From Halohasta litorea (GTDB lineage Archaea; Halobacteriota; Halobacteria; Halobacteriales; Haloferacaceae): DNA of 64,000 nucleotides. The stretch is from assembly GCF_024494645.1 (NCBI RefSeq), contig NZ_JANHDJ010000002.1:186001-250000 (forward strand), read 5' to 3'. The position numbers and the translations under genes were made by a program. How positions within the stretch are numbered: the first letter of the stretch is position 1; each line of letters begins with the position of its first letter. The notes under the pieces are model-generated. The model was not told the DNA's origin, made no database searches, and saw only the letters and a program-made list of their open reading frames with translations. Of the stretch, positions 48,508-58,994 are shown in pieces.

Positions 48508-48579
48508 GGGCTCGTAGATCAGTGGTAGATCACCCCCCTGGCACGGGGGAGGCCGCGGGTTCAAATCCCGCCGAGTCCA
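48508..48579 (+). tRNA. tRNA-Ala (anticodon GGC)
   Basis: The acceptor stem GGGCTCG pairs with CGAGTCC, including the G3-U70 pair that identifies tRNA-Ala. The anticodon stem is CCCCC-CTGGCAC-GGGGG with GGC as anticodon. The T arm is CGGGTTCAAATCCCG. Discriminator A 48579 is followed by CTT, so CCA is not encoded. No intron is present. TATA-like CCTTAATAAC lies at 48468-48477. Its 3' end is the attachment core of the downstream element. Confidence 0.97.
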
Positions 48580-48582
48580 CTT
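48567..48582 (+). repeat. attL: 16-bp direct repeat at the 3' end of tRNA-Ala
   Basis: CCCGCCGAGTCCACTT covers the last 13 bases of the tRNA plus three following bases. The same 16 bases occur at 58346-58361. The flanking bases differ on both sides, which defines the repeat limits. Confidence 0.92.
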
Positions 48583-48589
48583 GTAATTA

Positions 48590-48713
48590 AACGCCATAGA
48601 GAGGGTTCCTTACCTCTCGTATTTGGCGTTCTCAGTGGTTCTTTCGACTCTTTAGGGTTTGAGATACTTCCCTTGCTGATAGCAGTAGCACTCGGTAACA
48701 GTGCCGAGTCTAC
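48590..48713. other. Two hairpins just inside attL
   Basis: Hairpin 1 pairs AACGCCA (48590-48596) with TGGCGTT (48624-48630) and, inside it, GAGAGG (48599-48604) with CCTCTC (48613-48618). Hairpin 2 pairs GTAG-ACTCGG (48685-48695, one bulged base) with CCGAGTCTAC (48704-48713). No gene fits in 48583-48755. They could be integrase or excisionase arm sites, or terminators shielding the tRNA from element transcription. Confidence 0.5.
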
Positions 48714-48755
48714 GCTGTCGGCTGATTACATAGAGGGAATCGGGGGTGTTGCCTC

Positions 48756-48995
48756 ATGCCGATGAGGCTGCCGGAAACCGACGAATCCCGGTGTGCCAAC
48801 TGTGACGCACACGTTACGCGGGGGTTCCGCCGGGTCTACGGTGACGAGGACAACCGCGCCCATCGGTGTCACGAGTGCGATACGCTGGTTCGGTTGCGTG
48901 CGGGGAGTGCAGCCGGACTTGAGGTGCCGATTCCGGAACCCGGTGAGGGATCGGGTCGACACGGCAACACGACAGCCAAGGAGTGGTCGCTGTGA
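48756..48995 (+). CDS. Small zinc-finger protein of the element
   Basis: This 79-aa protein has C13-x2-C16 (RCANCDAHVTRGFRRVYGDED) and C38-x2-C41 (HRCHECDTLVRL), a four-Cys zinc finger followed by a Gly-rich tail. The HVT-x3-RV form resembles small zinc-finger proteins of haloarchaeal viruses and plasmids. It is likely a nucleic-acid-binding regulator. It is first in a four-gene operon and overlaps the next gene by GTGA. Confidence 0.78.
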   Translation: MPMRLPETDESRCANCDAHVTRGFRRVYGDEDNRAHRCHECDTLVRLRAGSAAGLEVPIPEPGEGSGRHGNTTAKEWSL

Positions 48996-49465
48996 GTACC
49001 GCATCCTCGAAGCGTGCCGGGGAGAACGCCGAGAGCGCGGTCATTCAGCGACATCCAGAACTCGAATACGTCGGTGACTCCGAGGCTCAGCACTACGACG
49101 CGCGGGTGTCGGAACTGCTCAGCCCATCGCCCATGCTGCCGTTCGTCGGGCTGTGCCTGCTCGAAGTCGGCACCGCTGTCGAAATCAAGTCGACCATGGC
49201 GGTCTACGGCGAAGCGCAGGCACGCGGGCGGTTCTACCTTCGCCGGAAGCAACACCAGCGACTCGTTGATGAGGCTGGTGTCTACCTGTTCGCAGTCTGT
49301 GAACCGCGACCGACACGCCCGGTGATCGCGGCGAAGATCGTCCCGGCGACCACGGTCGGCGGGCTGGTGTCGTCGTGGATTGACGGCGGCGACCGGGCGG
49401 ACTACGCACAACTGACGTGGGGGCGGATTTTCGACGAAAGCGAACTCCGGGGGCCGTCGCCATGA
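48992..49465 (+). CDS. Putative PD-(D/E)XK nuclease of the element
   Basis: This 157-aa protein has a nuclease-like order of motifs: an early helix with Glu (GENAESAVIQRHPELEYVG), Asp in QHYDARVSEL, then LEVGTAVEIKST, a typical E-x-K strand. RFYLRRKQHQRLVDEAGVYLFAVCE follows, as in resolvase/Hjc-like nucleases. The start is GTG 48992 inside the previous stop; GTG 48983 is an alternative. A role in DNA replication or resolution of the element is plausible. Confidence 0.68.
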   Translation: MSTASSKRAGENAESAVIQRHPELEYVGDSEAQHYDARVSELLSPSPMLPFVGLCLLEVGTAVEIKSTMAVYGEAQARGRFYLRRKQHQRLVDEAGVYLFAVCEPRPTRPVIAAKIVPATTVGGLVSSWIDGGDRADYAQLTWGRIFDESELRGPSP

Positions 49466-50061
49466 CGGTTCGAACAACGTACTTCTGGGCGTTGTCGAAC
49501 CAGCAGGTCGAACCCGCTGCCGACGACGTGGTGTATTCGGTCGTTCGGTACACGCAGGACTGGATAGACGACCTCGTAGAGCGAAATATCGACGCCCTCG
49601 CGCCACCATCTGACCTGCTCGATGCCTACAAGACGGTTGAGGATGCTGCCGAGGAAGACGGCCACTCGAATCCCTCACAGATTGCGTGGGAGTCGGTGAG
49701 CTTCGAGGAACGATACCGGCAGTACCTCAACACCGTCGACAACGTGGTCGAAGCGGTGGCCGAGCAAGCCGCCGAAACGACGGTGTGGCTGGTGTGTTGG
49801 GAGAAAGACGACCGCTACTGCCACCGTCGACTACTGGCCGACGAACTCCTCGACCGACTCGGCGAGAGCAGCCTGCGACTCACGTCGACAGGGATCGGTC
49901 GAACCTGTCCGGAGTGCGGCGTCGACGCGATCTGTTCGACCAGAGAGTTCGAACGGACGTTCCGGTTGGCCGCCCGTGAACCCGACGCCCGGCGGGTGCT
50001 CGACAGCGATGCTGAGCATATCTGTTCGAACTGCTTCACCGGGTTCGGGGGTTCGGAATGA
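49462..50061 (+). CDS. DUF488-like protein with C-terminal zinc finger
   Basis: This 199-aa protein has its middle (TTVWLVCWEKDDRYCHRRLLADELL) carrying the CWE-x3-CHR-x2-LA signature of DUF488. The C-terminus adds a zinc finger of the type C-P-E-C (RTCPECGVDAIC) and a late C-S-N-C (HICSNCFTGF). Start ATG 49462 overlaps the nuclease stop. DUF488 function is not established; a nucleic-acid or stress role is suggested by context only. Confidence 0.7.
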   Translation: MTVRTTYFWALSNQQVEPAADDVVYSVVRYTQDWIDDLVERNIDALAPPSDLLDAYKTVEDAAEEDGHSNPSQIAWESVSFEERYRQYLNTVDNVVEAVAEQAAETTVWLVCWEKDDRYCHRRLLADELLDRLGESSLRLTSTGIGRTCPECGVDAICSTREFERTFRLAAREPDARRVLDSDAEHICSNCFTGFGGSE

Positions 50062-51788
50062 CCGTCGACACGTTCGTGCAGTGTGCTCCTCACGAGGGAG
50101 ATCTTCACCTCATCTTCGACGAGTATGGGCTTGGGCCGTACTATGCGATGGACCGGATTCGGAAGGACCACGACAGCTGGCAGACCGAGGGGAAACCGAC
50201 GCGGGGCATCGAATTCGACGGTGACCGATGGGCACTGTGTTACGACTACGACACGGACAATCCGCTCGACCCGTGGAACCACGAGGAGTACCGACTACAG
50301 ACGGTCCCCGAGTTCCGGTTCTATTTCGTAGCGAAGGACGACCTGTATAGCGGGAATCAGGCCGACCAGAGTCGCCGAGTTCGGGGTGGAACGATCACGG
50401 TCCGCCCACGGTGGCCGGGGATGACCGCCAACGGTGAGCCGGTTCGGGGTGTACCGAATCTCGGCGGGCCGTATATCGATGTGCAGATTCAGGCAAGCAA
50501 CATCCGCCACGACCTGTACAACCAGCTTGCCCTGGAAGTCATCACGGCTTTCGACGTGAACCCGAAGTATCTCCGGAATCCCCACGAGGTGAGCAACTGG
50601 AACGACGCGGCAGTATACGTCCGAATTCGACGGTCGGAAAGCGGGCCGGTGTACGCGGCGGACGGACCGATAGCACGGACTCATCAGTTGCTCGAAGGTG
50701 ACCGCGAAGGCTACCGTGAGCACAAGGAAGATCACCGGAAACTGCCGGGCTACTATGTGTCGACGCAAATCAGCGACCAGCGTTCACACGACCTCATCAA
50801 AGGCCACATATTCGGGAAAGAGATCAAGCACTACTACCCGCAGTATCCGGAGAATCGGGAGCCGGACGACCCGCTGTACCATCCGAAAGTCGAAGTCTCG
50901 TACCAGACCAAGATCACCGAGGAAACGATCTACTGGGACGACACCGACGACATGGTTCGGGAGTTGGAGGAAACCCTACTGAATACGCTCGACTGGGCGG
51001 AACTACCGATTCGTGGCGGTGAACCGTTCTATCCGGACCCCTACTTCACAGCCGAGGATGGTCGACGACGATCTCGGAAGTTGGTCGACTGTCCGCTGCC
51101 GGAGATCGCGGATGCTCAGGAAGCGGCGGTGATGTCGCTGTGGGGGTCGTCAACCCAGAGTGACAAGGACGTAGTTGAGTACCTGTTGACTGACGGCGGC
51201 AAGGTATCACCCTCGAAGGCTGCCGAGGAAACCGGCTACTCGTACCGAACCATCCGCGAAGTGGTGAATCGGTGCGAGTCGGTGCTCCGGCACACCTACG
51301 GGAAGATCGAGATAGCGAGCAAGCACCAGCGAGAGATGTTGCTCAGTCGAGTTCGCGCTGCCGAGGAAGGCTTTCGAGAGGCTGTTGAGGATGCTGTTCT
51401 GACGGCAGCAGAGGCCGCCAGAGGACGCTCACGGTCGAAGTGGTCGGAAGCCCGCCGAAAGTACAACATCACGGTCAACAGCGACCCAGACGACTGCCGG
51501 AAGCTGTTGACGGTCGCCTACCAGCCCGAAGACACCTACGAAGCCAGAGAGGTAATCAGGGAGATCAAGACTGCGTATCTGGCGACCCACGACGACCGCG
51601 GTGGTGCCCATGGTGTACACGCCGTACTCGAGCTCGAAGATGGAACGAAGAAGCGATACAAGAGCCTCGAAGCGAAGACGGTTGCTCCAAAGAAGGGTTC
51701 GAGTGCTGCCCGACAGTTCCGAGACGCCATTGAGTCGGTGACACAGGACGAATGGGAGGCGTGGAAAAACGGGAGTTCGACGACCTGA
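50058..51788 (+). CDS. Large element protein with winged-helix segment, candidate replication protein
   Basis: This 576-aa protein has an N-terminal 350 residues that are beta-rich and mixed (FVQCAPHEGDLHLIFDEYGLGPYYAMDR at the start) with no motif known to me. Residues about 370-430 form a helix-turn-helix (VVEYLLTDGGKVSPSKAAEETGYSYRTIREVV). It resembles proteins I recall from haloarchaeal integrated elements (DUF7845-type), some placed where a replication initiator would be. No ATPase or Rep HUH motif is visible. It is the last gene of the four-gene operon. Confidence 0.65.
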   Translation: MTVDTFVQCAPHEGDLHLIFDEYGLGPYYAMDRIRKDHDSWQTEGKPTRGIEFDGDRWALCYDYDTDNPLDPWNHEEYRLQTVPEFRFYFVAKDDLYSGNQADQSRRVRGGTITVRPRWPGMTANGEPVRGVPNLGGPYIDVQIQASNIRHDLYNQLALEVITAFDVNPKYLRNPHEVSNWNDAAVYVRIRRSESGPVYAADGPIARTHQLLEGDREGYREHKEDHRKLPGYYVSTQISDQRSHDLIKGHIFGKEIKHYYPQYPENREPDDPLYHPKVEVSYQTKITEETIYWDDTDDMVRELEETLLNTLDWAELPIRGGEPFYPDPYFTAEDGRRRSRKLVDCPLPEIADAQEAAVMSLWGSSTQSDKDVVEYLLTDGGKVSPSKAAEETGYSYRTIREVVNRCESVLRHTYGKIEIASKHQREMLLSRVRAAEEGFREAVEDAVLTAAEAARGRSRSKWSEARRKYNITVNSDPDDCRKLLTVAYQPEDTYEAREVIREIKTAYLATHDDRGGAHGVHAVLELEDGTKKRYKSLEAKTVAPKKGSSAARQFRDAIESVTQDEWEAWKNGSSTT

Positions 51789-52132
51789 GCAGCCGACTGA
51801 ATAGATACTTCTCTTTCGTTTTACTTTATTTCTGAAACTGTGGTTGTTCTGTTTTCCTGGTAGTGAAATGCTAGTTTATTCGTGAATGGGTGAGAGTCAC
51901 GATCTTCGCTATGGGCATGGGCCGGGTCGAGATCGAACCGGAACCGCCGGTTCCGATTATTGCTTAGCAGGTGTGGCTAAGGCCACATCAACAAAATACC
52001 ACAGCCCCCTTCGACGGGCTCCGGTCGACGCGTACGGAAGACTGGTTGATGAGCTACTCACTGTCAAGTCGATGGCTTAGCCCTCCACCTCCGGTGCATT
52101 AATTTATGTATTTGATTTACTTGCTGTATAGT
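51789..52132. other. Structured non-coding region within the element
   Basis: These 344 bp follow the large protein gene. They contain CGGAACC-GCC-GGTTCCG (51939-51955) and, further on, mutually exclusive pairs CTTAGC/GCTAAG and TGTGGC/GCCACA (51964-51990). An open frame at 51886-52080 has no coding character. It may be a terminator, an antisense-type RNA or an origin; the last 40 bp are AT-rich and hold the next gene's promoter. Confidence 0.4.
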
Positions 52133-52918
52133 ATGTCAGTACAAAATGCGGACAAATCTATATTCGAATCCTTTCGAGAGTCAGGATGGTATGCAGCAAT
52201 TACAGCTTGGGTCTTCGGAGTAATTGTTGTCGTATTTCTATCTCTACTTGGTGGTGCCATCAGTTCCTCAACCGATTTAATCAACATTTCAGGTGAACAG
52301 ATTACGGTAGTCAGAATGGCTTCTGTCGGTTTGGGTACTGGCTACTATATTGGTTTGTCCTTGAAAAATAGAGAGGCAGGTAAGAGTTGGTTTATGTTCG
52401 GGATTTTTTCGGCATTATCTGTAATTTCTTATTTCACTGTCGACACAGTAGTATTTGAGCAGATTCCAGCATATGCGATCCTGATTGTAGGATCTGTACT
52501 TACTATGTTTGCACATGGTACCCCAGTAGTGACGAACAATGAGCAATATCTCAAGCTTCTTAAATACATATCCGGCTATACATCTACAGTAGTCGTTGTT
52601 ATTCTGGCTACCTCGAAATACATTCTATCATTAATTAGATTTGGGATAAACTGGTATGATAGCTTACCATTCCCTCAACAATTACTTCTCATTGTACTTG
52701 TGTTGGTAATCTCGTATTTTCTGAAGATTTTTTCTGAAGATATAGATGAAAGAGAGGTCAATCGATTGGCTCATAAAAAAGCAGCTAAGTCCTTGTCAAG
52801 CCTTATCAATTCAGATGATGCAGAATGGGACGATTTGGATATGCAAGAGAAGAACGAAATAATAGGAAATCTAATTGACCAGATGGAATTTCAGAAGGAA
52901 GAAAGAGATAATAACTAA
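52133..52918 (+). CDS. AT-rich six-helix membrane protein, element cargo
   Basis: This protein of about 261 aa, after the short N-terminus MSVQNADKSIFESFRESGWY, has six hydrophobic helices (from AAITAWVFGVIVVVFLSL to QQLLLIVLVLVISYFLKIF). A charged cytosolic tail with LAHKKAAKSLSSLINSDDAEWDDLDMQEK completes it. ATG 52133 is preferred to ATG 52106. Codon use is AT-rich, unlike the flanking operon, so it was acquired separately. No family is recognised. It converges on the HEPN-like gene. Confidence 0.7.
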   Translation: MSVQNADKSIFESFRESGWYAAITAWVFGVIVVVFLSLLGGAISSSTDLINISGEQITVVRMASVGLGTGYYIGLSLKNREAGKSWFMFGIFSALSVISYFTVDTVVFEQIPAYAILIVGSVLTMFAHGTPVVTNNEQYLKLLKYISGYTSTVVVVILATSKYILSLIRFGINWYDSLPFPQQLLLIVLVLVISYFLKIFSEDIDEREVNRLAHKKAAKSLSSLINSDDAEWDDLDMQEKNEIIGNLIDQMEFQKEERDNN

Positions 52919-52959
52919 ATTGAGAATTGGCTGATTCACGCGCGCAATTATATATAGAA

Positions 52960-53007
52960 CTGCGGCCCGCAGCCCATGGAATCAGACGCGCAGCGTCGCC
53001 ATGGGCT
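52960..53007. other. Nested hairpins between convergent cargo genes
   Basis: AGCCCATGG (52971-52979) pairs with CCATGGGCT (52999-53007). Inside it GACGC-GCA-GCGTC (52985-52997) forms a second stem, and CTGCG-GCC-CGCAG (52960-52972) competes for the outer left arm. A TATA-like AATTATATATAG lies at 52947-52958. It is GC-rich within AT-rich DNA. It may be a terminator, a small structured RNA or a relic inverted repeat. Confidence 0.55.
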
Positions 53008-53130
53008 ACGGGTGGGGGTGTCTGGACACGGACAGTCGACGAGGTCGACGCGGGCTTGCAGAATGTTATGTTAGAGTGTCCGCGATATTGGCCGGAGTTG
53101 ACTGGTGATGTAGTGATCTTGTCCTATATT

Positions 53131-53823
53131 TCATCGAATTTTAGAGTCATCCGGAAGAATAGATTCAGCCTTTTCTAAAAATATTAAGCTTCTATTATCA
53201 TCTATCTTCCTCTGGAATTCTTCCACGAACGCAATGGCAGAGGACATAGACCATTCGCAACAGCTGTAACTTGAAGCCATGCGTGGTAGGTATGTTTCAT
53301 TTCCATTTTCATACAGTGGATTTGGTTCTACTCGATCTCGTAATGCACCTTCTAGATTGCTCTCTTTTTCTTCTGGTGCGCTATCATCAGTAATTACGTC
53401 TGGTTCAAAATGCACCCAGTAATTTCGCAATTTCCGAAGCCAATTGAGATCTTGATAAGGCTGTCTACCTTTTTCGAATGGATCATGACCCATTGCAATT
53501 AGTAATGCTTGATATTTTCTCAGCGTGCTAAAACGAGTGAAATTTGATCCAGTGAGTTCTTCGTTTACCGCAAAAACCCGCTCAACATCCTCGATGCGAT
53601 TTATCATATCATATGTCTCGTTTACAAATGCTTCTACAAACGCGAATGAACTAATCACACATGAACTCACCATTGCAGTATGCTCTACATTGGGTGGAAT
53701 CTCTGGATATGCGCCCGGATCATCTGATCCATTCTTATACTTTTTTTCAATCTGTGCCACATGCTCTGCAGCCAGAACTGCAGATATCATATGATTGTCT
53801 GAATGGTGGACTTTTATTTCCAT
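53131..53823 (-). CDS. HEPN-like protein (R-N-x3-H motif), putative ribonuclease
   Basis: This 230-aa all-helical protein has the HEPN RNase signature intact in WLRKLRNYWVHFEPD (R133, N134, H138). The N-terminal helices include HMISAVLAAEHVAQIEKKY and VISSFAFVEAFVNETYDMI. HEPN RNases act in toxin-antitoxin and antiviral abortive systems. The gene is AT-rich, lies alone on the minus strand, and has no obvious MNT antitoxin partner. Short AbrB-like genes follow on the other strand. Identification rests on one motif and fold plausibility. Confidence 0.6.
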   Translation of the reverse strand: MEIKVHHSDNHMISAVLAAEHVAQIEKKYKNGSDDPGAYPEIPPNVEHTAMVSSCVISSFAFVEAFVNETYDMINRIEDVERVFAVNEELTGSNFTRFSTLRKYQALLIAMGHDPFEKGRQPYQDLNWLRKLRNYWVHFEPDVITDDSAPEEKESNLEGALRDRVEPNPLYENGNETYLPRMASSYSCCEWSMSSAIAFVEEFQRKIDDNRSLIFLEKAESILPDDSKIR

Positions 53824-53890
53824 GAATTAATGATATTTCGCATTGGCATATGCATTAATATTATTTTCCAGCGGATAGCTGACTTGCTCA

Positions 53891-54106
53891 ATGATCCGAA
53901 CGCTTCGAGAACACGACGGCACGCCACTGGTGGCATTGGACAGAGACGAGCTGGTGATGGACGGGATTCTTCCTGAGGATGAAGATGAGTCGGTCGACCA
54001 GTTGATGCACATTAAGCGAATGAGCGAAGGTGCGTGGTTGATCCGTCCAGTTGTCGACGGTGGGCCGCCGGATCTCGGTCCAATACGAGATCTCTACGAG
54101 TCGTAG
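53891..54106 (+). CDS. AbrB-like small protein
   Basis: This 71-aa protein begins MIRTLREHDGTPLVALDRDELVMDGI. The strand-turn-strand with TPLVALDRDELVMDG follows the swapped-hairpin AbrB/MazE plan in which a rigid polarised loop precedes a helix-like turn; the C-terminal half is divergent (SEGAWLIRPVVDGG). It probably binds DNA as a dimer. It lies 67 nt from the divergent HEPN-like gene, so it may control it. Confidence 0.6.
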   Translation: MIRTLREHDGTPLVALDRDELVMDGILPEDEDESVDQLMHIKRMSEGAWLIRPVVDGGPPDLGPIRDLYES

Positions 54107-54268
54107 ATCCGTGCAAGGGGGTTCCTGGGACCGACGCCACGGGGTAACACTCAGATGTTCTCAGAATCTTTATCTCCGTTTCGCCGAGTTGGTAAGGTCT
54201 AATTGAAATACAGGATTGAATGTGATTAGGTCCATAGATTGAATATTTAGCGGATGACCTGCCGGGAT

Positions 54269-54448
54269 ATGGAACGGGAAATCAGGAAGCTGCGCGACCT
54301 CGGCAACGGCTCCGGCGGGATTACGCTGCCCAAGGAGTTCTTGCGAGATCTCGAACTGATGGACGACAACGACGAACTGGCCGATGCTCACATCATCATC
54401 GAGAAGGACGAAGACGACGACGGACTATCTCTACTGCCGTTTCACTGA
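54269..54448 (+). CDS. AbrB/SpoVT-type small DNA-binding protein
   Basis: This 59-aa protein reads MEREIRKLRDLGNGSGGITL then PKEFLRDLELMDDNDEL, the classic AbrB/MazE strand plus LPKEF helix turn, with an acidic haloarchaeal tail. ATG 54269 is chosen over 54254. Its 3' end overlaps a convergent 53-aa ORF by 7 nt. With the preceding paralogue it forms a likely regulator pair for the cargo region. Confidence 0.75.
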   Translation: MEREIRKLRDLGNGSGGITLPKEFLRDLELMDDNDELADAHIIIEKDEDDDGLSLLPFH

Positions 54449-54603
54449 CGACCGACGGATACGGACACCTCACACCGAACCGGAAGTTCGTCAGTGTCCA
54501 GTATCTCGGCGATCTCTTCCGGTGTGAGTGATCCGCGATTTTGTGCGGCGGTCATCAACTCGGCGAGCTGGCCCTTCGGGACGGCCGTGGTGTCGCCCCG
54601 CAT
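54442..54603 (-). CDS. Small element protein (53 aa)
   Basis: The frame from CAT 54601-54603 to TCA 54442-54444 encodes 53 aa. It starts MRGDTTAVPKGQLAELMTAA and contains a helix LTPEEIAEILDTDELPV. It abuts the stop of the upstream 37-aa ORF with no gap, as in a two-gene transcript. Codon use is haloarchaeal (GC-rich), unlike the neighbouring cargo. Function is unknown. Confidence 0.6.
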   Translation of the reverse strand: MRGDTTAVPKGQLAELMTAAQNRGSLTPEEIAEILDTDELPVRCEVSVSVGRQ

Positions 54604-54717
54604 TCAAAGGTAGTAGTCCGCTGCACAGTCGAGGGCCTTCGAAGTAGCGTCTTCGCCGGTCGCCTCTTTCAGATACTCCCACTTCTGTGCCCTCGCATCA
54701 GTCTTTTCGATCCGCAT
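54604..54717 (-). CDS. Small element protein (37 aa), first of a two-ORF transcript
   Basis: The frame from CAT 54715-54717 to TCA 54604-54606 encodes 37 aa. It begins MRIEKTDARAQKWEYLKEAT and ends with ALDCAADYYL. The KTDAR-x3-W-x-YLKEA pattern is one I recall from mini-proteins of haloarchaeal viruses and plasmids, possibly ribbon-helix-helix-like. Its promoter region has a TATA-like TTTATATAC (minus strand, about 54771-54780) overlapped by a palindrome. Confidence comes from the recalled pattern, the operon layout and regulation. Confidence 0.65.
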   Translation of the reverse strand: MRIEKTDARAQKWEYLKEATGEDATSKALDCAADYYL

Positions 54718-54719
54718 AG

Positions 54720-54877
54720 TTGCACAACCCCCCGCGATTCCTAGGATTTTGCGGTGACTGAATCGGATTCAGTATATAAAGAGCGACTGAATCGCCCCCG
54801 GTGTCGACGAGATCGGCATGGGCATGGACCGATCTAAGGAGAGAATTGCACAACCCCACCACCGAGTAGTTGTGCAA
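54720..54877. promoter_or_regulatory. Intergenic control region with two operator-motif families
   Basis: TTGCACAAC occurs three times: 54720-54728, 54846-54854, and inverted as GTTGTGCAA at 54869-54877. The last two form an inverted repeat with a 14-bp spacer. The palindrome ACTGAATC-G-GATTCAGT (54757-54773) abuts the TATA-like TATATAAAG; another half, ACTGAATCG, is at 54786-54794. The first TTGCACAAC lies 2 bp before the start of the 37-aa ORF. Two different repressors are suggested. Confidence 0.6.
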
Positions 54878-54954
54878 AAACGGGGAAGCCGATCTTTCGA
54901 CGTGCAACCGCTGGATTACAAATTATTATCTGGTTTGATGAGAGCACATTGGTT

Positions 54955-56178
54955 ATGTCTCAACGTCCTCTTTCTAGCAGACAACTGGATTTCGTAATTA
55001 AGTTCACCGTTGTTGTGTCGCTTGGGTCTGCTCTTTCGATGGGACTCGTAGCAATTTATGGATCATACACTAGTGTTAGAATTCCAACATTCTCTGAGGC
55101 GGTTGGTTTTGTATTTATATACATTCTCTGGACCGGTGTTGCGTTTGTATTTGCTCTTGTTACACAGTCGGATATAGATGATATTGGCGTTTATGACAAA
55201 CTATCAGACATTCCGTCAACACTATTGTATGTTAGTGTGATAATGGTGCTACTAATCATTGACTATGCATTATTTTTGTCAAAAGTCTTCACAACTGTTA
55301 CTTCAGTTGCAAGTGCAAATCAGGCATTAATCTCGCTCATATTTTCCGGTCTGCTTGTGCTTCTGTACTACGATCAGCACCGGACTCAACGGCAACAGGC
55401 CGAATTGATGAATCAACAAATTGCGATTGAAGAGCGACGGGTTGCTTGGCGTGAAACTCAGGAACGACCGCGGCTAACGATCAGCAATTGGGCGTTTTTC
55501 GAAGATGAAAAAGCGCTTCCTAATGACTCTGATAATGAGGACTCTAACACTCCACTTGCAGCATTCTTGACTGGCGACCTTGTTGATACTCAAACCGGAG
55601 TCTTCACTGCACAGTTGTCTAATCGTGGAGAGGGTGTAGCGCGATCACTCCATCTGCAAATTGAGGTACTCGTTCAAAATGAAGAATTCTCAAATAAATA
55701 TTACCACCTGAATGGATCCTTTTTATTTGTTGTAACTGATGTTTTTGGTTTAGATTCAGATGTAATAGATCAATATCTGAATAATAAGGACCTTCTTATA
55801 CGACCAGACGATCTAACGAATGTTTTCGGTGCCATGTCGATTCGGATGATGATTCAAACAGACTCTTCAATAAATTCTCTTAGAGAATATCTTGATCACC
55901 TTCCTTTTGGAGTTCAGAACGTAGTACTCCGTGCTTCTCTCAAATATGAGGGCCCGGCTGAATCAGAGTATACTGAACCGATAGCTGCTGTTCGTCTTCC
56001 CATAGCTGAGGTAGATTCTCTCGCCACCGCATTTACTGATGGGCGGTTAGTAGGATTTGAGGGTGTACCAACGGTCGGTGCAGAAGCGAGCAGGAAGTTC
56101 TTTGAAGACAATTTTGCCGATGTAACGTGGCAAAATCGAGACGTAGCTAAAATCACATATAACAAATCAAGTGAGTAG
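54955..56178 (+). CDS. AT-rich membrane protein with soluble C-terminal domain, element cargo
   Basis: This 407-aa protein has four N-terminal helices (about 12-35, 50-72, 86-107, 120-140), then a coiled coil (TQRQQAELMNQQIAIEERRVAW). A soluble beta-rich domain beginning RPRLTISNWAFFED follows, with QLSNRGEGVARSLHLQIEVL. The order 4TM-coiled coil-sensor/effector recurs in membrane-bound immune effectors, but no known effector motif is seen. ATG 54955 is chosen because 54949 is TTG. AT-rich like the other cargo genes. Confidence 0.68.
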   Translation: MSQRPLSSRQLDFVIKFTVVVSLGSALSMGLVAIYGSYTSVRIPTFSEAVGFVFIYILWTGVAFVFALVTQSDIDDIGVYDKLSDIPSTLLYVSVIMVLLIIDYALFLSKVFTTVTSVASANQALISLIFSGLLVLLYYDQHRTQRQQAELMNQQIAIEERRVAWRETQERPRLTISNWAFFEDEKALPNDSDNEDSNTPLAAFLTGDLVDTQTGVFTAQLSNRGEGVARSLHLQIEVLVQNEEFSNKYYHLNGSFLFVVTDVFGLDSDVIDQYLNNKDLLIRPDDLTNVFGAMSIRMMIQTDSSINSLREYLDHLPFGVQNVVLRASLKYEGPAESEYTEPIAAVRLPIAEVDSLATAFTDGRLVGFEGVPTVGAEASRKFFEDNFADVTWQNRDVAKITYNKSSE

Positions 56179-56320
56179 TTGTAACCGTAATTTCGACAGA
56201 TGAGTGTTGATTTTGGAGAGTTCTAACTATGGGGGATTAAGCCGGTGATCCTGTCCAGCGGTTGGCATAGGATCTAATTATTCGATCCAAAGAAACGGAG
56301 TGCAGGTATTCACCGCGAGA

Positions 56321-56605
56321 TCAGTCTTCGAGATCGGGAGGCGTGTGTTCACCCTCAAGATACGCGGAACCATCCTCGGAGATGAGATACCATTTGTCGT
56401 ATTCTTCGAGCTGGTCAATCAGCCCTGCCTCAACAAGTTTCGGGACTCTCCTCTGTATCGTAGGGTACGGAATCGTGTTACCAAGAACGTAGGAATTCAC
56501 TTCGATCCCTTTCATACTCAGAGCGGAATCCGACTCTTCGAGGACCTCAAGGATAGAATCATCACTGCCTGTCATCCATTGGGTCCCTTTTCGCATCTTG
56601 TCCAA
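56321..56605 (-). CDS. Winged-helix transcriptional regulator of the element
   Basis: This 94-aa protein contains a wHTH: DSILEVLEESDSALSMKGIEVNSYVLGNTIPYPTIQRRVPKLVEAGLIDQ, then wing EEYDKWYLISEDGSAYLEGE. It resembles element-encoded repressors of haloviruses. The start may be at M4 (MRKGTQWM). A perfect 18-bp palindrome lies upstream, so it is probably autoregulated and controls integrase or cargo. Confidence 0.78.
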   Translation of the reverse strand: MDKMRKGTQWMTGSDDSILEVLEESDSALSMKGIEVNSYVLGNTIPYPTIQRRVPKLVEAGLIDQLEEYDKWYLISEDGSAYLEGEHTPPDLED

Positions 56606-56670
56606 ACGCTAATTCCATACTGCATAGAATCATCGGATGCGTTCAAGTGTGATTTTAATCCACATCGTAT

Positions 56671-56688
56671 TGATGTGAATTCACATCA
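56671..56688. promoter_or_regulatory. 18-bp palindromic operator
   Basis: TGATGTGAA-TTCACATCA is a perfect palindrome. A flanking half-site, CACATC, is at 56661-56666. It lies 66 bp upstream of the winged-helix regulator and before the integrase region, a natural position for a switch operator. Confidence 0.6.
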
Positions 56689-56757
56689 AAATTTATCATC
56701 ATGTACTCCAACAGGTCTGGCAGCGGAAGATAATCGCGGACCCGTCGCTCGTCGATG

Positions 56758-57255: not shown

Positions 57256-58275
57256 ATGAGCGGGTTAGATCCGATTACCCCACCGGAAGCGATTGACCTG
57301 TATCTCGAACACCGTCGACCGGAAGTCGCCGAGAAGACGCTGCAGAATCAGCAGTACCGCTTGGCTCGGTTTCGAGAATGGACCGAGGAGTACGATCTCG
57401 AAAACATGAACGACCTCACGGGTCGGAAACTCCACCAGTATCGAACGTGGCGGTCGGACAAGATCAAGCGGATTACGCTGGTCAACGAGCTGCGGACGCT
57501 GCAGAAGTTCTTGGAGTTCTGTGCCTCAATCGATGCGGTCGAACGTGGGCTTAGAGAGCAGGTACTGATTCCAACGCTTGAGCCGGGAGACGAAGCCAGT
57601 GACGTTGAACTGCACACCGACCGCGCCGAGGAGATCCTGAAGTACCTGAAACGATTCCACTACGCGAGCCGTCAGCACGTCATTTTTGCGCTGCTGTGGC
57701 ACACCGGAATTCGACTCGGTACGCTGCAGTCGATGGACGTGGAGGACTTCGACCCCGATAACCGGTGTATCGATGTGAAACACCGGCCAGACGGGGATAC
57801 GCCACTCAAGAACAAGGACGCTGCCGAGCGGTCGATCAGCGTTTCCAAGCAGTACTGCGAGATTATTCAGGACTACATCGAGCACCACCGTCACCCGGTG
57901 ACCGACGATCACGGGCGGGAGCCACTGATTACCAGCGAACAGGGTCGACTGACGGCCACACCGATCCGCCGGATCGTCAACCGACTCACCCAGCCGTGTC
58001 ACGTCGGTGAGTGTCCGCACGACAAGGACCCCGACACCTGCGAGTATCGCCATTACGAGAACCTCGCAAACTGCCCATCGTCACGGAGTCCGCACACGAT
58101 TCGACGCGGTTCGATCACTCACCACCTTCGAAAAGGTGCACCGCAAGTCGTCGTCGAAGGCCGCTGTAACGTATCCTCTGACGTGCTCGAAAAGCACTAC
58201 GACGAGCGAACTGACCGCGAAAAGATGGAGGCCCGCCGGGAATGGCTCGACGATGCCCTCCACGAGGAATACTAA
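57256..58275 (+). CDS. int: Tyrosine-family integrase
   Basis: This 339-aa protein has an N-terminal SAM-like domain (1-95: ITPPEAIDLYLEHRRPEVAEKT) and a catalytic domain with R153 (HTGIRLGTL), H280-x2-R283 (SPHTIRRGS) and the nucleophile Y315 (LEKHYDERT). The enzyme would recombine the 16-bp core within tRNA-Ala. The start ATG 57256 gives the usual length; the frame open to 57115 crosses a repeat. It ends 70 bp before attR. Confidence 0.93.
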   Translation: MSGLDPITPPEAIDLYLEHRRPEVAEKTLQNQQYRLARFREWTEEYDLENMNDLTGRKLHQYRTWRSDKIKRITLVNELRTLQKFLEFCASIDAVERGLREQVLIPTLEPGDEASDVELHTDRAEEILKYLKRFHYASRQHVIFALLWHTGIRLGTLQSMDVEDFDPDNRCIDVKHRPDGDTPLKNKDAAERSISVSKQYCEIIQDYIEHHRHPVTDDHGREPLITSEQGRLTATPIRRIVNRLTQPCHVGECPHDKDPDTCEYRHYENLANCPSSRSPHTIRRGSITHHLRKGAPQVVVEGRCNVSSDVLEKHYDERTDREKMEARREWLDDALHEEY

Positions 58276-58345: not shown

Positions 58346-58361
58346 CCCGCCGAGTCCACTT
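58346..58361 (+). repeat. attR: 16-bp copy of the tRNA-Ala 3' end
   Basis: CCCGCCGAGTCCACTT is identical to 48567-48582. It is preceded by unrelated sequence, so no tRNA is rebuilt here, as expected for the distal end of an element inserted in a tRNA gene. Confidence 0.92.
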
Positions 58362-58463
58362 CTCTATATTATGCCTCGTTAGATTCATATGTGACCTGCT
58401 ATTCGAGCCAAAGACGTACGTTTAGTAAATAATTTTAATACGAATATGTGTGATCCAGATATA

Positions 58464-58982
58464 ATGACTAAAGACGAGTATTCGTATTCTGCGAAATTCA
58501 TTGGAAGCCTCTTTGATACACCTGCGCTACATCGTTTTCGGGAGGATTTTAGGCTTATAATTGAGAAAACTGACCGTTTTCAGAACTGGGATGATGACAA
58601 AGCTACTTTGAGAAGGCAAATAATTGATGGGAGAGATGCTGCAAGAAATTCTCGTATTCACTTATATTCAGATTTTATTGGTATTGTAGGAGCAGTGCTT
58701 AGTCTGATTCCTAGTTCACCATTTTCTGTATTAACGGCTATTGCTGGTCTTTTATTCATACTCTTGGGACGTATTCAGCAGGGAATGGTAGAGATACTAG
58801 TCTATGACGACCCATACGATGAGCGACAAATTAACCGATTAAAATTCATGAGTGCTTGGAATCGTGGTGCTATGGGTACTTGGAAGTCCTATCTGATTTT
58901 GATTATTGGCCCACTGATTCGGTTCGAGTTTGCAGGGTACTTAGTAGCACTTCTGATCATCGATGCGGAAGTCAACGAATGA
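58464..58982 (+). CDS. AT-rich membrane protein just outside attR
   Basis: This protein of about 172 aa starts MTKDEYSYSAKFIGSLFDTP. A charged N-terminal helical part with RRQIIDGRDAARNSR leads to two helices (FIGIVGAVLSLIPSSPFSVLTAIAGLLFILLG) and a third hydrophobic stretch (SYLILIIGPLIRFEFAGYLVALLII). ATG 58464 is chosen over 58446. AT content and type match the element cargo, though the gene lies beyond the attR core. SLATT-like 2TM effectors are a loose comparison only. Confidence 0.68.
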   Translation: MTKDEYSYSAKFIGSLFDTPALHRFREDFRLIIEKTDRFQNWDDDKATLRRQIIDGRDAARNSRIHLYSDFIGIVGAVLSLIPSSPFSVLTAIAGLLFILLGRIQQGMVEILVYDDPYDERQINRLKFMSAWNRGAMGTWKSYLILIIGPLIRFEFAGYLVALLIIDAEVNE

Positions 58983-58994
58983 AAATAAAAGGTT

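Follow-up and report, generated by a model that had tools for sequence, protein, structure and literature searches.

Two neighbouring open reading frames face each other in a haloarchaeal contig: a membrane protein gene (52106-52918, + strand) and a gene for a HEPN-like protein (53131-53823, − strand). All positions refer to the window, the whole stretch of 64,000 nucleotides that was analysed (G000:C23:186001-250000). The original prediction correctly recognised these two convergent genes and read them as one module, either a membrane sensor with an RNA-cleaving effector or an addiction pair. The locus poses two questions: whether the genes belong together, and what each of them may do.

The integrative element and its cargo slots

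The genes lie downstream of a tRNA-Ala(GGC) gene (48508-48580, + strand; ARAGORN; Rfam tRNA, 1.7e-14), the sole match in the Rfam scan that reached the gathering score of its family. This gene is the integration target. A 16-bp direct repeat, CCCGCCGAGTCCACTT, made up of the terminal 14 tRNA bases plus the 2 bases that follow, occurs in two exactly identical copies, attL at the 3' end of the tRNA gene (48567-48582, + strand) and attR (58346-58361, + strand), and the gene for the tyrosine integrase of the element (57256-58275, + strand; PF00589, 1.6e-11) ends beside attR. The block is an insertion, because a congener (G173) has a near-empty site in which the tRNA end is followed, with 47 bp intervening, by the equivalent of window position 58994. 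With a tyrosine integrase, a tRNA target, direct repeats and an empty site in a relative, this is a tRNA-targeted integrative element, and the two genes are part of its cargo, as had been predicted. The element proper measures 9.8 kb. G173 also lacks about 630 bp to the right of attR. This stretch (58362-58993), which is probably a separate insertion or the remnant of an earlier element, contains an AT-rich gene for a 178-aa protein (58446-58982, GC 0.40).

The foreign base composition of the two genes was borne out, with GC contents of 0.38 (GC3 0.36) for the membrane gene and 0.40 (GC3 0.31) for the HEPN gene against 0.58-0.65 for neighbouring genes of the element. It does not single them out as a pair, since the gene for a 409-aa membrane-anchored protein (54949-56178) is similarly AT-rich (GC 0.42), as is the 178-aa gene beyond attR; AT-richness marks all of the cargo. 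A further gene of the element (56321-56605) encodes a 94-aa protein, possibly of the winged-helix type, whose relatives are found near the integrases of several elements (L038, L040).

How this cargo is organised becomes apparent from a second, sister copy of the element elsewhere in this genome (L077; G000:C11:892500-902778), which is located at a tRNA-Ala(CGC) gene and whose contig ends within its integrase. The backbone of the two elements is 85-89% identical over window positions 48508-52032, 52940-53063 and 53862-54910. It comprises genes with a DUF488 domain (49417-50061, + strand) and a DUF7845 domain (50058-51788, + strand), both 85% identical to the sister at the DNA level, a gene for a 71-aa protein that by eye is possibly AbrB-like (53891-54106, + strand; in a stretch 89% identical to the sister), and one for a 64-aa MazE/AbrB-like protein (54254-54448, + strand; PF04014 with E=0.008, below the cut-off), which the sister also has.

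Three slots interrupt this backbone. Slot 1 of the window element (52033-52939) holds the membrane gene, and the corresponding stretch of the sister (L077 4861-5753) consists of unrelated AT-rich DNA with a 262-aa gene on the opposite strand and no membrane gene. Slot 2 (53064-53861) holds the HEPN gene; in the sister it is reduced to 75 bp (L077 5878-5952), and the HEPN gene is absent. Slot 3 (54911-56720) carries the 409-aa gene, and its counterpart in the sister has two overlapping genes, one for a soluble protein of 332 aa and one for a multi-pass membrane protein of 165 aa (L077:7039-8531, GC 0.38). These two proteins gave no family match and are possibly a two-gene system; a Kiwa-like identity of the pair was tested and found unsupported.

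Between slots 1 and 2 lies a 124-bp spacer (52940-53063) with a TATA-like sequence and a strong hairpin. It is 85% identical to the sister and must be assigned to the backbone, because it is kept in an element that has neither of the two genes. Since the sister retains this spacer and has other contents on either side of it, the membrane and HEPN genes occupy separate slots. The spacer was also considered as a mobile repeat and rejected, as the sister copy shows it to be backbone and no copies were found in the window, the plasmids, the viral contigs or the other loci compared. The stretch 52976-53074, which folds into a strong hairpin, includes a possible small leaderless ORF of 32 aa that is preceded, at a distance of about 25 bp, by the TATA-like sequence. 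In the sister this ORF reads 57 aa, and the insertion in slot 2 may have shortened the window copy.

Like the haloarchaeal tyrosine-integrase elements described previously (PMC8371274), the window element targets a tRNA gene, is bounded by direct repeats and has a tyrosine recombinase at one end. It is unlike them in that one genome harbours two sister copies at two tRNA-Ala genes, with three AT-rich slots that differ between them.

The HEPN-type protein

According to a 2013 survey (PMC3710099), HEPN RNases carry at the end of helix 3 an Rx4-6H motif in which the arginine is followed by a polar residue (N, D or H), and helix 2 contributes a supporting acidic residue. The 230-aa protein encoded in slot 2 (53131-53823, − strand) shows this arrangement, the motif being R133 N134 Y W V H138. 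An R-N-x3-H motif by itself could be a product of chance. Its conservation was counted over 13 aligned, divergent members from haloarchaea, proteobacteria, actinobacteria, a gemmatimonad and a phage contig, the window protein included: R133, H138 and E64 are present in 13/13, N134 in 12/13 (the exception has H) and N68 likewise in 12/13.

Structure prediction, which had been suggested as a check of the HEPN fold, agreed with that assignment in part. In an AlphaFold model based on five sequences (mean pLDDT 70), R133 and N134 are placed at the end of a helix formed by residues 121-137, H138 follows just after, and the conserved acidic residue E64 lies within a helix spanning residues 44-74, as expected for HEPN positions. 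Comparison of the model with the PDB by Foldseek leans towards HEPN without reaching significance: 8 HEPN chains were among the 43 best matches, the best of them with an E value of about 1, and the highest probability among the matches listed (0.66) belonged to a HEPN chain. A comparison with a viral library yielded nothing informative.

The relatives of the protein, approximately 21-36% identical to it, are rare and widely scattered. Five other haloarchaeal genomes encode one (6/392 when the own genome is counted), and others were found in Labedaea, Rhodococcoides and a Gemmatimonadaceae MAG. Plasmids of Streptomyces, Achromobacter and Methylovirgula carry further ones, as does one IMG/VR contig, where the gene is flanked by genes of a phage. 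The family is not covered by any Pfam, NCBIfam or PADLOC model; eight members searched against PADLOC gave no match at E<=1. The closest Pfam model, PF18730 (HEPN_Cthe2314), reached one of eight members at a sub-threshold E=0.05; the window protein gave no match to it, and the model found nothing in the own genome or in the actinobacterial sample. Taken together, the product of slot 2 is very likely a HEPN ribonuclease that travels as mobile cargo.

Some of the relatives have genes of a defensive kind nearby. At one locus (L046:6090-9968), only 27 bp separate a HEPN relative from the end of a convergent gene for an Eco57I-type restriction-methylase, others lie near Mrr and HNH nucleases, and one is close to an AbiEii-type gene. 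Several have no obvious defence neighbours, as in Labedaea and in the Gemmatimonadaceae, where the gene lies beside pilin genes. Across the loci compared, no neighbour recurs beside the HEPN relatives. The 409-aa membrane-anchored protein of slot 3 has weak similarity (E ~1e-6) to the product of a gene that adjoins a different HEPN relative (L047:10838-11716).

HEPN proteins are common as toxins, HepT being an example. A rival reading of the locus is a toxin-antitoxin pair in which the HEPN protein would be the toxin, and the antitoxin would be either one of the small AbrB/MazE-like proteins or an RNA transcribed from the spacer with the hairpin. The 64-aa MazE-like gene and the 71-aa gene do lie beside the HEPN gene, the start of the latter being 68 bp from the HEPN gene start, and the spacer folds strongly (z -4.4). 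However, the small genes and the spacer are all kept in the sister without a HEPN gene, which makes them backbone and eliminates them as dedicated antitoxins. The lack of a recurrent neighbour likewise speaks against a fixed partner, and we regard a toxin-antitoxin pair as unlikely.

We also see little probability in a HEPN fold that serves the element other than as a nuclease, whether in housekeeping or, for instance, in RNA binding or element regulation. The relatives without defence-like neighbours would be compatible with such a role, but the catalytic arginine and histidine and the supporting glutamate are fully conserved across archaea and bacteria, and the distribution of the family is patchy and mobile.

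The membrane protein and its relation to the HEPN gene

For the membrane gene of slot 1, the inner ATG at 52133 fits the start of a 43%-identical relative better than the ATG at 52106 and is the more likely start on this comparison, giving a multi-pass protein of 261 aa (52133-52918, + strand) as opposed to 270 aa. The six transmembrane helices originally assigned to it were recovered in three relatives, whereas the hydropathy scan found five in the window protein itself. It was rightly described as a membrane protein of no known family, with neither a Pfam family nor a PADLOC match, and a model predicted from its single sequence had a pLDDT of 47, too low to be informative.

Relatives of the membrane protein are encoded in nine other haloarchaeal genomes (10/392 with the own genome), and none was found in the viral contigs, plasmids and phages searched. 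An integrase of the same type lies within 10 kb of the gene in 7/9 of these genomes and is adjacent to it in three (L034, L035, L039). With about 2.7 such integrases per genome, the chance that a random gene has one within 10 kb is, by a rough estimate, approximately 1.5%. The proximity of integrases at seven of nine loci indicates that the membrane family belongs to the gene pool of integrative elements. The protein perhaps acts alone, as an exclusion or effector protein.

If the two genes formed a functional unit, their families should be found together. The survey of 392 genomes, a check that the original prediction had itself put forward, gave the opposite result: only the own genome holds both families, the membrane gene being present in 0/5 of the other genomes with a HEPN gene and the HEPN gene in 0/9 of the other genomes with a membrane gene. 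Since an overlap of only about 0.1 is expected by chance for five and nine genomes, the absence of shared genomes does not indicate avoidance; complete overlap is, however, what an obligate pair would be expected to show. The membrane and HEPN genes are independent cargo, carried as separate passengers.

A single two-gene module comparable to HEPN-TM, with the membrane protein as sensor or anchor and the HEPN RNase as effector, is accordingly a very unlikely reading, and the pair was rejected as such on the missing co-occurrence and the sister element. The reading draws on the adjacency of the genes, their similarly AT-rich composition and the precedent of systems that combine HEPN and transmembrane proteins. 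Against it, the two families never meet elsewhere, the genes are convergent and therefore not an operon, and backbone DNA common to the sister divides them into two slots.

Other haloarchaeal HEPN relatives do often adjoin some membrane gene: at 3/5 of the other loci, the immediate neighbour encodes a different multi-pass membrane protein, in two cases upstream on the same strand. These neighbours match neither one another nor the window membrane protein. About 28% of dark-matter proteins in such islands are membrane proteins (PMC4158269). Because membrane genes are this common there, a loose functional link between HEPN relatives and membrane proteins is not more than a lead.

Discussion

We propose that the two genes are independent AT-rich passengers in exchangeable slots and that the HEPN protein is a stand-alone, metal-independent RNase acting in abortive defence in a manner similar to Tha, a reading to which we assign a probability of roughly 0.7. 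An RNase that works by abortive infection is the best guess for the HEPN protein because of its catalytic residues, the mobile and patchy spread of the family and the defence genes next to some relatives. From this we infer an RNase activity, a dimeric state, a trigger and a defence role, which would combine into the following hypothetical sequence: (i) the HEPN protein would be present as a dimer that is silent until triggered; (ii) an invading virus or element would supply the signal that switches the dimer on; (iii) the active protein would cut RNA via R133 and H138, aided by N134 and E64; (iv) RNA cutting would halt growth before the invader spreads, as with Tha in Staphylococcus prophages.

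Tha, encoded by S. aureus prophages, is an anti-phage HEPN system that is activated by a tail protein and acts by abortive infection (PMC11087260). Compared by description, Tha and the window HEPN protein are both single proteins with an R-N-x3-H motif (RNSIMH in Tha-1), without a nuclease partner and located on a mobile element. They differ in that Tha has 301 aa, a C-terminal HEPN domain, the inhibitor Ith and a tail protein as trigger, whereas the window protein has 230 aa with the motif in mid-protein, and no inhibitor candidate was identified for it. The Cthe_2314-like HEPN family (PF18730; PMC3710099) is comparable in its intact motif and in having no conserved operon partner. HEPN-TM of phage-inducible chromosomal islands (PMC12948488) likewise places a HEPN protein and a transmembrane domain on a small integrated element; by the same kind of comparison it is unlike the window genes, which are convergent, occupy a slot each and are not found together elsewhere. 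HepT chains (7bxo, 6m6w) were the best HEPN fold matches (E ~1), which recalls the type VII toxin-antitoxin system HepT-MntA. In contrast to that system, neither the window HEPN gene nor its relatives were seen to adjoin an MNT nucleotidyltransferase partner, and no NTase domain was detected in the scanned window neighbours.

More tentatively, the element could serve as a carrier with three or more defined slots that picks up AT-rich anti-virus genes singly. The solo HEPN and six-helix membrane families might then represent two distinct defence components of haloarchaea that have so far escaped recognition, with the HEPN family also present in bacteria and a phage.

In summary, adjacency and a common base composition are insufficient to define a two-gene system, which corrects a tempting reading of this locus. 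The two sister elements in one genome provide a clear example of small archaeal integrative elements that swap their cargo slot by slot. With the HEPN protein, an unnamed, rare and widely scattered family of solo HEPN proteins, with members in archaea, in bacteria and on a phage contig, joins the likely RNA-cutting defence proteins.
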